A stretch of 46,696 nucleotides of DNA from an uncultured Methanobrevibacter sp. Lineage in GTDB: Archaea; Methanobacteriota; Methanobacteria; Methanobacteriales; Methanobacteriaceae. Under the pieces are notes generated by a model that ran no database searches, was not told where the DNA came from, and saw only the letters and a program-made list of their open reading frames with translations. This document shows positions 21,481 to 28,194 of the stretch, in pieces (positions within the stretch are counted from its first letter, which is position 1; each line of letters opens with the position of its first letter). The stretch is from contig NZ_CAJOKH010000014.1 in NCBI RefSeq assembly GCF_905235195.1, forward strand, positions 1 through 46,696, given 5' to 3'. A program made the translations under genes and the position numbers.

Positions 21481-21759
21481 ATGAATTTAACACATATGAA
21501 TGGAGAAAATAAAGGTTCAATATTACTATTTGCATTAAGTACTTGCGGATGGTGTAAGAAAGTTAAAGACTTACTTGATGAATTAAATGTTGAATATGAT
21601 TATATTTATGCTGACTTAACTCAAGATGAAGAGAGGCAGGAATTACTTGTAGAATTAAAAAAGTACAATAATAAAACATCATTTCCAACACTTGTAATAA
21701 ATAAAGATAAAACTATAATTGGTTATAGTCCTGATGAAATTAAAGAATTATTGTCTTAA
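21481..21759 (+). CDS. Glutaredoxin-like thiol oxidoreductase
   Basis: Protein of 92 residues with a thioredoxin-fold active site TCGWCKK (Cys22, Cys25) and the cis-Pro region KTSFPTLVINKDKTIIGY typical of glutaredoxins. Archaea of this group generally lack glutathione, so it probably works with another thiol or with the reductase encoded 18 bases downstream. The ATG at 21481 follows GGGGATATTT. It is likely co-transcribed with the next gene. Confidence 0.82.
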   Translation: MNLTHMNGENKGSILLFALSTCGWCKKVKDLLDELNVEYDYIYADLTQDEERQELLVELKKYNNKTSFPTLVINKDKTIIGYSPDEIKELLS

Positions 21760-21777: not shown

Positions 21778-22254
21778 ATGATGGGAAAAATATATGATGA
21801 TTTTAAGAATGAGGCTGAAAGTAGAGGATATTTTGTTAATCCAGATGTTGAATTTGTTGAATTTTTGCTTGAAAACATAAAAACAAATATGGAAAGATAT
21901 GGCTATGGATCTTGTCCATGTAGATTGTCAAGTGGTATAAAACAGGAAGATTTGGATTTGATTTGTCCTTGTGATTATAGGGATATGGATTTAAATGATT
22001 ATGGTGCATGTTACTGTGCTTTATATGTTAATAAGGATATAGCTGAAGGTAAACAAGAACTTAAATCCATACCAGATAGAAGATTTGATGAGATAAATAA
22101 GGAAGAAAATAAATCTAAAGACTTAAGTTTTACAGATTTAAAATATCCAATTTACAGATGTAAGGTTTGTGGATATTTATGTGCAAGAGATAATCCTCCA
22201 GAGATTTGTCCTATTTGTAAAGTAGAAAAAGATAAGTTTGAAAGATTGTTTTAA
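21778..22254 (+). CDS. Ferredoxin:thioredoxin reductase catalytic subunit fused to rubredoxin
   Basis: Two-domain protein of 158 residues. The first domain has the FTR catalytic pattern Cys46-Pro-Cys48, Cys63-Pro-Cys65 and Cys78-Tyr-Cys80, holding a [4Fe-4S] cluster beside a redox disulfide; the last motif has Tyr where plants have His. The C-terminal 35 residues form a rubredoxin-like Fe(Cys)4 unit (YRCKVCGYLC and CPICK). The fusion suggests a one-electron relay into the FTR cluster and on to a disulfide partner, plausibly the glutaredoxin just upstream. The binding site is GGGGTG. Confidence 0.85.
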   Translation: MMGKIYDDFKNEAESRGYFVNPDVEFVEFLLENIKTNMERYGYGSCPCRLSSGIKQEDLDLICPCDYRDMDLNDYGACYCALYVNKDIAEGKQELKSIPDRRFDEINKEENKSKDLSFTDLKYPIYRCKVCGYLCARDNPPEICPICKVEKDKFERLF

Positions 22255-25018: not shown

Positions 25019-25268
25019 TAATACACTATATTCATTAATTATTTCTCAATTTTTTCTTTAAAATATAACAATCTTTATATACTAAAAAAATCTTATAAAT
25101 TATATAACACATGTTATATTATTTTTTCTGAACTTATGATTTTTATCAAAATATTTATATATATAAAAATAACAATTGTTATATGATATAATATAACAGG
25201 TGTAATATTTTTTAAATCAAAATTTGAAATTGTATTATTATAAAATTAGATTATTTAGGTGATTATTA
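25019..25268 (+). promoter_or_regulatory. metY promoter with three ATAACA-N2-TGTTAT palindromes
   Basis: Three copies of one palindrome occur: 25104-25117 (ATAACA-CA-TGTTAT, arms extend to ATATAACA/TGTTATAT), 25169-25182 (ATAACA-AT-TGTTAT) and 25193-25206 (ATAACA-GG-TGTAAT, one arm imperfect). The second and third are 24 bp apart and lie just downstream of a TATA-like ATTTATATATATAAAA (25153-25167), so they would cover the transcript start. This looks like a repressor operator set for metY. The regulator is unknown. Confidence 0.6.
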
Positions 25269-26566
25269 ATGACAAAGAATAAAGAATATAAATTAGCAAC
25301 TTTAGGTGTAAGAGCAGGTCAAAATCCGGACCCTACAACTGGGGCTCAAGCAGTTCCGATATATCAAACTACATCATATGTATTTAATGATTCAGACGAA
25401 GCAGCAAGACGTTTTGCACTTCAAGAATTTGGACAAATATATTCAAGATTAACAAATCCAACAAGTGATGTATTTGAAGCTAGGATTGCAGCTATTGAAG
25501 GGGGTAATTCTGGAATTTCAACAGCTTCTGGACTTGCAGCAATAACATATGGAATTTTAAATATAACTGAACCTGGAGATAATATTGTATCTGCAGATAA
25601 CCTTTATGGAGGAACTTATCAGTTATTTAATTATACCTTTAAAGACTTGGCAAGAGAAGTTAAATTTGTTGATTCACAGGATTTACAGGCTTTTGAAGAT
25701 GCAATTGATGATAAAACTAGAGCAATTTATGTGGAATCCATTGGAAACCCAAAATTAGATGTGCCTGATTTTGAAGCTATGTCTGAAATTGCACACCGTC
25801 ATGATATTCCATTGATTGTAGATAATACTGTGGGAGTAGGATTAGTTAGACCATTAGAACATGGTGCAGATGTTATTACTGCATCAGCAACTAAATATGT
25901 TGGAGGACATGGAACTGCAGTTGGAGGATATATTGTAGATTCAGGTAAATTTAATTGGGGTAATGGTAAATTTAATAATTTTACAAAGCAGATCCTAGTT
26001 ATCATGGTTTAGTATTTTGGGATGCATTTGGCGATGTACCTGAACTTGGAAATATTGCATTTACTGTAAGAATAAGGGCAAGGCTACTTAGGGATTTAGG
26101 TGCAACACAAGCACCAGTTCACAGTTTCATCTTCTTACAAGGGCTTGAAAGTTTAGATGTTCGTGTAAAAAGACATTCTGAAAATGCTCTTAAAGTTGCA
26201 AAATTCTTAGAAGAACATCCTAAAGTCAAATGGGTTAGTTATCCAGGTTTAAAGTCCCATCCAACATATGAAATTAATAAAAAATATTTAAAAGATCATT
26301 TTGCAGGTATTATTGGTTTTGGTGTTGAAGGTGGAGAAGATGCAGGTAGAAAAGTCATTGAAAAATTAGAATTATTCTCTATTCTTGCAAATATTGGAGA
26401 TGCAAAAAGTTTAGCAATCCACCCTGCAAGTACTACTCATCAACAATTAACTCCTGATGAACAGGCTGCAACTGGTGTAACCCCTGACTTTATTAGACTT
26501 TCAATAGGTCTTGAAGATGCAGATGATTTAATTGATGACTTAAACCAAGCTTTAAATAGTATATAA
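25269..26566 (+). pseudogene. metY: O-acetylhomoserine sulfhydrylase (MetY), frameshifted
   Basis: PLP enzyme of the Cys/Met-metabolism family that makes homocysteine from O-acetylhomoserine and sulfide. The first frame (25269-26012) has the cofactor lysine in [10 protein letters not shown] but ends early after [13 protein letters not shown]. Coding continues in another frame from GCA at 25988 ([20 protein letters not shown]) to the stop at 26564-26566, including [15 protein letters not shown]. One base is missing in the short A run at 25985-25987. With it restored the protein has about 432 residues, the normal length, and no other damage is seen. It is therefore a very recent mutation or a sequence error. 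Confidence 0.85.
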
Positions 26567-26612: not shown

Positions 26613-27821
26613 ATGTATTTAGATAATTCAGCAACTACTCAAGTAAATGAAGAAGTTTTAAAAGAAATGGAACCTTTCTTTAGGGAAGAATTTGGTAATC
26701 CGTCTACCCTTTACGGCTTAGGTCGTTCCTCCAAAAATGCTTTAAATCAAGCTAGAGAAAAGGTAGCACATGCAATTAATGCAGATGCTGGTGAAATTAT
26801 TTTTACAAGTGGTGGATCTGAATCAGATAATTTGGCAATTAAAGGTATTGCATTTAAACTACGTAATAAGGGTAAGCATATTATTACTTCTAATATTGAA
26901 CATCCTGCAGTTAAAAATACATTACACTTTTTAGAAAAACTTGACTATGAAGTAAGTTATTTACCTGTAGATGAAAATGGTATAATTAAAATTGAAGATT
27001 TAAAAGAATCAATTAAAGATGAGACAATTTTAATTACTATTATGCACGGTAATAACGAAATAGGTACTATTCAACCTATAGAAGAGATTGGAAAAATTGC
27101 ACGTGAAAATAATATTATTTTCCACACTGATGCTGTTCAAACTTTTGGTAAAATTGATGTGGATGTTGAAAAATTAAATGTAGATTTATTATCCTTATCT
27201 TCACATAAAATTAATGGGCCTAAAGGGGTTGGTGCATTATATATTAAAAAAGGAATTAGGTTAGAACCTCTTATTCATGGTGGAGGTCAGGAAAATGGTA
27301 TACGCTCTGGTACTGAAAATGTTGCAGGAATAGTAGGATTTGCTAAAGCATGTGAAATTGTAAGTCAAAACTTAGATTCCAATTCTAAAAAATTATCTGC
27401 AATTAGAGATGAATTAATTGAAAAAATATTAAGTACAATTCCTGAATCTTATCTAAATGGCGATCGGGAAAAAAGATTGCCGAATCTAGTAAACTTTAGA
27501 TTTAATGCAATTGAAGGGGAATCATTAATTTTACTTTTAGATGCAAAAGATTATCAGACTTCCACTGGTTCTGCATGTTCTTCTAATACCTTAGAAGCTT
27601 CTCCAGTATTAACTGCTCTTGGACTTGATCCTGTGGATGTTCATGGGTCTTTAAGAATTTCACTTTCTCCGGAAACTGATGACTTTAATGTTGATGATTT
27701 TGTTAGTGTAGTTTCAGATGCAGTATCTAGATTAAGGGAAATGTCACCTCTTTGGAATCAGGATACTGATTATAAAGCTGTAATGTGTAATGGAAAAAGA
27801 AATAGATGTAGGAGATGTTAA
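26613..27821 (+). CDS. Cysteine desulfurase (NifS/IscS family)
   Basis: PLP enzyme of about 402 residues that takes sulfur from cysteine for Fe-S cluster assembly. It begins MYLDNSATTQVNEEV. It has the cofactor-lysine region SSHKINGPKGVGALYI, the RSGTENVAGIVGFAKA motif and the catalytic cysteine in STGSACSSNTLEASPVL. The ATG at 26613 follows TTGGAGAGTAAT. The C-terminus has an unusual Cys/Arg tail, VMCNGKRNRCRRC, and the stop abuts the IscU start by one base. It is encoded with its scaffold partner and downstream of metY. Confidence 0.92.
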   Translation: MYLDNSATTQVNEEVLKEMEPFFREEFGNPSTLYGLGRSSKNALNQAREKVAHAINADAGEIIFTSGGSESDNLAIKGIAFKLRNKGKHIITSNIEHPAVKNTLHFLEKLDYEVSYLPVDENGIIKIEDLKESIKDETILITIMHGNNEIGTIQPIEEIGKIARENNIIFHTDAVQTFGKIDVDVEKLNVDLLSLSSHKINGPKGVGALYIKKGIRLEPLIHGGGQENGIRSGTENVAGIVGFAKACEIVSQNLDSNSKKLSAIRDELIEKILSTIPESYLNGDREKRLPNLVNFRFNAIEGESLILLLDAKDYQTSTGSACSSNTLEASPVLTALGLDPVDVHGSLRISLSPETDDFNVDDFVSVVSDAVSRLREMSPLWNQDTDYKAVMCNGKRNRCRRC

Positions 27822-27822
27822 A

Positions 27823-28194
27823 ATGGATTATTCAGAAAAAGTTATGGATCATTTTGCAAACCCACGTAACTGCAGAAAAATTGAAGATGCAGATGGAGTA
27901 GGTACAGTAGGTAATCCTACTTGTGGGGATTTAATGACAATTTATATTAAAGTTGATGATGATAAAATTACTGATATTAGTTTTCAGACATTTGGATGCG
28001 GAGCAGCAATTGCTACTAGCAGTATGATTACTGAAATAGCAGTTGGTAAAACAATTGAAGAAGCTTTAAATATTACTCGTAATGATGTTGCAGATGAATT
28101 AGATGGACTTCCTCCAATCAAAATGCACTGTTCTAATCTTGCAGCTGATGGACTTAAAGCAGCTATAGAAGATTATCAAAAAAAGAATCAATAA
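27823..28194 (+). CDS. iscU: Fe-S cluster scaffold protein IscU/NifU-N
   Basis: Scaffold protein of 123 residues. The three conserved cluster ligands are Cys34 (TCGD, with Asp36), Cys59 (FGCGAA) and Cys103 (MHCSN, with His102). It receives sulfur from the desulfurase encoded just upstream and builds Fe-S clusters. The ATG at 27823 follows GTAGGAGATG. An upstream in-frame ATG at 27790 lies inside the desulfurase gene and is rejected. It is the last gene of the metY-desulfurase-iscU block. Confidence 0.92.
   Translation: MDYSEKVMDHFANPRNCRKIEDADGVGTVGNPTCGDLMTIYIKVDDDKITDISFQTFGCGAAIATSSMITEIAVGKTIEEALNITRNDVADELDGLPPIKMHCSNLAADGLKAAIEDYQKKNQ

Follow-up and report, generated by a model that had tools for sequence, protein, structure and literature searches.

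An operator upstream of metY marks a probable sulfur regulon and a candidate XRE-type repressor in Methanobacteriaceae

The stretch of DNA analyzed here (the window; 46,696 nucleotides) comes from a 1.89-Mb archaeal draft genome, in which it forms contig C14; the nearest named relatives, as judged by metY, are rumen Methanobrevibacter. The regulated gene is metY itself (25269-26566, + strand), encoding O-acetylhomoserine sulfhydrylase, which we assigned to its family through a 92%-identical orthologue (L017; TIGR01326). A one-base frame break near 25979-25988 splits metY in the window; the orthologue is intact at 432 aa, and the break could stem from misassembly of the draft genome or from recent mutation. 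Directly 3′ of metY lie open reading frames that we read as nifS-like and iscU-like genes (26613-28194, + strand). This gene order is also kept in relatives, and the two genes are possibly co-transcribed with metY. Elsewhere in the window, at 21778-22254, a rubredoxin-like domain is fused to the catalytic chain of a ferredoxin:thioredoxin reductase; a glutaredoxin-like open reading frame (21481-21759) lies next to it.

Three operators, none assigned to a strand, lie inside the 250-bp gap 5′ of the metY start at 25269. Operator A (25104-25117, ATAACACATGTTAT) is an exact palindrome, operator B (25169-25182, ATAACAATTGTTAT) is exact and equal to the family consensus, and operator C (25193-25206, ATAACAGGTGTAAT) carries one mismatch; measured from start to start, A and B are 65 bp apart and B and C 24 bp apart. 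The initial annotation had counted three copies of ATAACA-N2-TGTTAT in this region. Two of them, at 25104 and 25169, do match ATAACANNTGTTAT exactly, and the third, at 25193, has a mismatch that went unmentioned. Its placement of two copies 24 bp apart over the predicted transcript start held, since operators B and C flank a start predicted near 25184. The main promoter reads as a TTTATA box at 25154-25159 (+ strand), 15 bp before operator B, a spacing that recurs across the family. An alignment of 37 metY promoters further located a TATA-like TTTATA at 25074-25079 (+ strand), belonging to an upstream, partly decayed promoter module. An apparent fourth copy at 25065, with two mismatches, was not counted as an operator because it overlaps the conserved TATA box of this upstream module. 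Among 20,000 simulated 250-bp regions, generated by a first-order Markov model with the composition of the window or of intergenic DNA, none contained three or more sites when one mismatch was allowed, and a single region contained two. A chance origin of the three metY operators is excluded.

Conservation of the metY promoters follows the same elements. In the 37-promoter alignment, operator columns averaged 1.67 bits versus 1.03 bits elsewhere (p ~1e-9), with conservation peaking at the TATA box and operators B and C. Operator B is among the best conserved columns, and the position of operator C is kept in relatives, there mostly as ATAACACGTGATAT. Relatives carry two TATA-operator modules in tandem; in the window the downstream module is whole and the upstream one is reduced to its second operator, with which operator A aligns. 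Sites precede metY in all four genomes of the window genus that we examined, and every named Methanobrevibacter metY locus examined that had adequate upstream DNA has at least one site (at most one mismatch), most having two to four. Across the Methanobacteriaceae loci examined, an operator was found before metY in up to six copies per locus, and footprinting of metY promoters in relatives, as proposed with the initial annotation, thus finds the motif conserved. Outgroup metY genes from bacteria, Methanospirillum and Methanolobus had no operator upstream. A metY paralogue in the same genome as the window (L020; G000:C55:17087-17791; 63% identical) is without an operator and serves as a natural negative control.

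When the whole 1.89-Mb genome was scanned, five exact sites were found, and none for a reversed palindromic control of identical composition. Two of the five precede metY. A third precedes cysK, where a one-mismatch copy accompanies it at a distance of 66 bp; a fourth is found 39 bp ahead of a gene for a class-II glutamine amidotransferase, itself followed by a gshA-like gene (GATase-gshA operon); and the fifth is intergenic elsewhere. Together with a one-mismatch site 45 bp upstream of a nifB-like gene, the target set of this genome comprises metY, cysK-cysE-regulator, GATase-gshA, the nifB-like gene and a GMC-type gene. Two- and three-mismatch forms were near the chance level, with 139 found versus 111 expected in one scan and 490 found versus 591 for the control in another. 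Because two-mismatch forms were no commoner than the control, we treated sites as informative only up to one mismatch and left the two- and three-mismatch sites unused.

The enrichment extends over the family. In 51 family genomes, a count that joins two scans with one genome common to both, we found 149 exact copies versus 10 of a composition-matched palindromic control, a 15-fold excess. Exact sites were nearly absent from coding sequence, the few "inside" cases being upstream-extended or doubtful open reading frames, and 114 of 155 distinct exact sites had a recurrent gene no more than 450 bp downstream, a figure that is partly circular since the target classes were drawn from the sites themselves. 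The most frequent targets were metY (25 sites), marH/marD (15), GATase-gshA (13), thiF/moeB-like genes (13), cysK (12, some divergent from cysE) and a GMC/FAD oxidoreductase gene (6). Others included thiI, cysS, nifX-like, larE, nifS, mmp16/comF and ssuA/B/C-type transporter genes, as well as a DsrE-like gene, a TcyP-like transporter, the pyridoxal phosphate (PLP) genes pdxS and pyridoxamine kinase, hcgB and a few more; the nifX-, DsrE-, TcyP- and hcgB-like names, and that of feoB, come from sequence reading only. MMP16 is the coenzyme M synthase of Methanosarcina acetivorans (PMC12068725). The target list ties sulfur status to PLP supply, to this enzyme and to a gene resembling glutamate-cysteine ligase; hcgB, feoB, hsdS and mtaA, also among the targets, are not clearly sulfur genes.

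Could such palindromes be a by-product of AT-rich intergenic DNA, or a mobile or structural repeat, rather than operators? A+T makes up 87% of the metY intergenic region, degenerate forms of the motif occur near chance level, and some sites in two genomes (G128 and G130) accompany a repeated small open reading frame. Against this stand the 15-fold excess of exact copies over a control of the same composition, the invariance of two inner positions described below and the functional coherence of the targets, which holds over about ten genera, so that we consider this explanation very improbable. The 14-mers are very probably operators of a sulfur regulon found throughout Methanobacteriaceae. The random intergenic spread that would have spoken against a regulatory role was thus not seen, exact sites instead recurring before sulfur genes, and the suggestion of a regulator of sulfur or methionine metabolism was right as far as sequence can tell, with a regulon that extends well past metY. 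In the open-access literature, outside which most subscription journals lie, we found no earlier description and nothing relevant on the 14-mer, on the family COG2522 or on a methanogen sulfur regulon; the finding is likely new.

Several individual sites deserve mention. In G128 and G130 (L315, L316, L323), exact sites also precede the repeated small open reading frame, of 84-131 aa, and at L323 three exact copies are spaced 23 bp apart. In two genomes of the window genus (L027, L047), an integrase gene and an hsdS-like gene have a site between them; this locus is perhaps phase-variable and probably unrelated. Two species (L032, L035) have an exact site upstream of a gene that we read as hcgB, of [Fe]-hydrogenase cofactor synthesis. 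A search pattern built on spaced pairs of sites matched just 9 of 139 genomes and was dropped as too narrow.

Refinement across the family gave the consensus ATAACAATTGTTAT. Within 115 site contexts pre-selected for at most one mismatch, C4 and G9 were invariant despite the mismatch allowed, the outer AT pairs were nearly constant, and positions 5 and 8 were A or T. The typical site was 13-23 bp 3′ of a TATA box, over the predicted transcript start. Of 218 non-redundant promoter contexts, 89 had a TTTATA 13-24 bp ahead of the operator, compared with 1-19 cases in equal windows elsewhere. Archaeal TATA boxes are centred near -27. The operator therefore falls in the interval from the TATA box to about +8, in which a protein bound to it would block the polymerase, and repression is favoured because of this position. 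We infer that the regulator probably represses. An activator, or a protein that both activates and represses, would be consistent with the further operators found 65-120 bp more upstream in several promoters and with the cysK operator pair of the window's own genome, some 340 bp 5′ of the start codon. The commonest placement, however, puts the operator after the TATA box and ahead of the start site, as is typical of archaeal repressors, and many targets have one site only, in that same interval; an activating or dual role is unlikely.

As candidate for this repressor we propose a previously undescribed XRE-type helix-turn-helix protein of ~125 aa. In the window's own genome its gene lies at C3:7051-7428, in the order operators-cysK-cysE-regulator-cysS, and most lineages have it next to cysK-cysE or close to cysS, metY or gshA. 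In Methanosphaera, for instance, it is found apart from cysK and beside gshA instead. At 35 of 38 regulator loci a site lies at most 4.5 kb upstream, the distance within the cysK-cysE cluster being 2-3 kb; in some genera (G128, G009, G103) sites near the regulator are weak or absent. The regulator gene was found in 77 of 78 good genomes, the exception (G133) being itself without the exact motif, and G004 has neither regulator nor motif. With the regulator near universal in the family, its co-occurrence with the motif is read from three motif-free genomes (G133, G004 and G138). Two other genomes (G137, G005) have no exact 14-mer, yet carry one-mismatch sites before their cysK clusters. In G138 (L424, 1425-1796), an in-frame TAG interrupts the regulator gene and exact operators are missing from the genome; here the operator-regulator system may have been lost naturally.

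Alignment of 40 regulator sequences revealed an invariant recognition helix, ITQPAxSQY, and five invariant cysteines (C5, C89, C92, C115 and C118), arranged as C5 and two CxxC pairs. Matches to PF01381 (HTH_3) scored 23.5 and 25.4 bits, marginally above the cut-off of 23, and the protein returned no NCBIfam name and no sequence relative in the PDB. Its structural model had a mean pLDDT of 83.7, and the best Foldseek matches were helix-turn-helix proteins such as DdrO, none with an E-value below 0.86. Linkage and co-occurrence make it likely that this protein binds the operators, and there is about an even chance that its cysteines sense sulfur status.

Another protein might bind the operators of what would still be a real regulon: a wHTH-CBS protein, possibly a SAM or nucleotide sensor, a MarR-like DUF7839 protein or a LysR-type protein. 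All three are conserved in every genome tested; the wHTH-CBS protein and a single LysR-type protein each occur in eight of eight genomes, and in G136 there are operator-bearing genes 1.1 kb from the former (L337). None of the three genes, however, carries an operator in its promoter, and no linkage of any of them with cysK, metY or gshA was found across lineages; the LysR-type gene adjoins a hexulose-isomerase-like gene. We regard these proteins as doubtful candidates and the cysK-linked protein as the preferred one. The CRP/FNR, Rrf2 and LysR families were also checked in eight genomes, with matches that were weak or had neither an operator nor a sulfur-gene linkage. Matches to HTH_Crp_2 were other wHTH proteins, none with the motif in its promoter, the sole Rrf2 match above the cut-off was the wHTH-CBS protein, likewise without the motif in its promoter, and the one LysR protein per genome had no motif nearby and unrelated neighbours. 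An ArsR protein (L054/L268) was set aside, as it sits with a P-type ATPase and the nearby one-mismatch site lies within or downstream of coding sequence.

Sulfide supply can limit methanogens, and to our knowledge little is known of how they sense sulfur. The best explanation as a whole, to which we give a probability of roughly 0.68, is a sulfur-starvation regulon under the cysK-linked XRE-type repressor, common to nearly all Methanobacteriaceae (the window genus, Methanobrevibacter, Methanosphaera and others). The protein, encoded in the operator-led cysK-cysE-regulator(-cysS) cluster, would bind ATAACAATTGTTAT as a dimer just 3′ of the TATA box and, when sulfur is sufficient, would keep RNA polymerase from assembling or escaping at metY, cysK-cysE and the other sulfur genes. 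Shortage would be sensed through the five invariant cysteines, perhaps by an Fe-S cluster, a metal, or thiol or persulfide chemistry, and release of the regulator would induce methionine and cysteine synthesis together with organosulfur import and salvage. An operator and its targets, together with a candidate regulator, can now be tested in gut methanogens.

The nearest known box that we found in any organism is the PrfA box of Listeria monocytogenes, the 14-bp palindrome tTAACanntGTtAa (PMC5359189). It differs from ATAACANNTGTTAT at the outermost pair only and has an identical core; nearly all sites here carry A/T rather than T/A at that pair, which sets them apart from a PrfA-type box. Both systems are tied to thiol status, PrfA being glutathione-dependent, whereas PrfA is a CRP/FNR-type activator of bacterial virulence genes and our candidate is an XRE-type protein. 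No PrfA-like protein was identified, a search for CRP-type helix-turn-helix proteins in eight genomes yielding none linked to the motif, and the resemblance is probably convergent. The regulon as such resembles those of CymR, CysB and CmbR, in which one regulator governs cysteine and methionine synthesis, cystine or sulfonate uptake and organosulfur use. Those regulons are bacterial and their regulators belong to the Rrf2 and LysR families, with different operators, while this one is archaeal. Among archaea, NrpR, MsvR and SurR likewise have palindromic sites near TATA boxes, and SurR is also sulfur-related. Their consensus sequences (GGAA-N6-TTCC for NrpR, TTCG-type for MsvR and GTT-N3-AAC for SurR) do not match the operator profile, so the earlier statement that the motif fits no known archaeal operator stands as far as it can be checked.

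One class of targets is nitrogenase-like. The 500-555-aa NifD-like target (PF00148) matched PDB entry 9FMG with an E-value of 4e-70 versus 2e-27 for true nitrogenases, and the NifH-like target with 2e-123 versus 8e-83. This entry is the Rhodospirillum rubrum methylthio-alkane reductase (MAR), MarDK2H2 (PMC12552129). MarDK/MarH, not nitrogenase, is thus by far the best solved relative of the operator-controlled proteins, which differ from the R. rubrum system in being archaeal, tied to SsuABC-type transporters and putative by sequence. The H, D and K genes are adjacent, with operators before them and before neighbouring SsuABC-type operons (L308, L335, L341). A search with a query hand-joined from two natural MarD-like sequences, adequate for presence or absence only, found MarD-like genes in 28 of 139 family genomes and none in the window's own genome. 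The regulon suggests sulfur salvage, not nitrogen fixation, as the role of nitrogenase-like HDK operons in Methanobacteriaceae. The product of MAR is methanethiol, a possible substrate for a MetY-type enzyme, which could couple it to O-acetylhomoserine; common control of metY and mar would make sense for this reason. It is perhaps an evenly balanced proposition that the master regulator of sulfur status in almost all Methanobacteriaceae, the dominant rumen and gut methanogens included, is a previously undescribed family of small archaeal XRE-type repressors whose sensor is cysteine-liganded, and that in sulfur shortage it switches on the marHDK-like reductase (where present), SsuABC-type import and MetY so that methanethiol sulfur can be drawn from organic compounds. 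Archaeal marHDK-like operons beside SsuABC-type transporter genes, each led by an operator, were seen at five loci (L308, L335, L341, L327 and L347).
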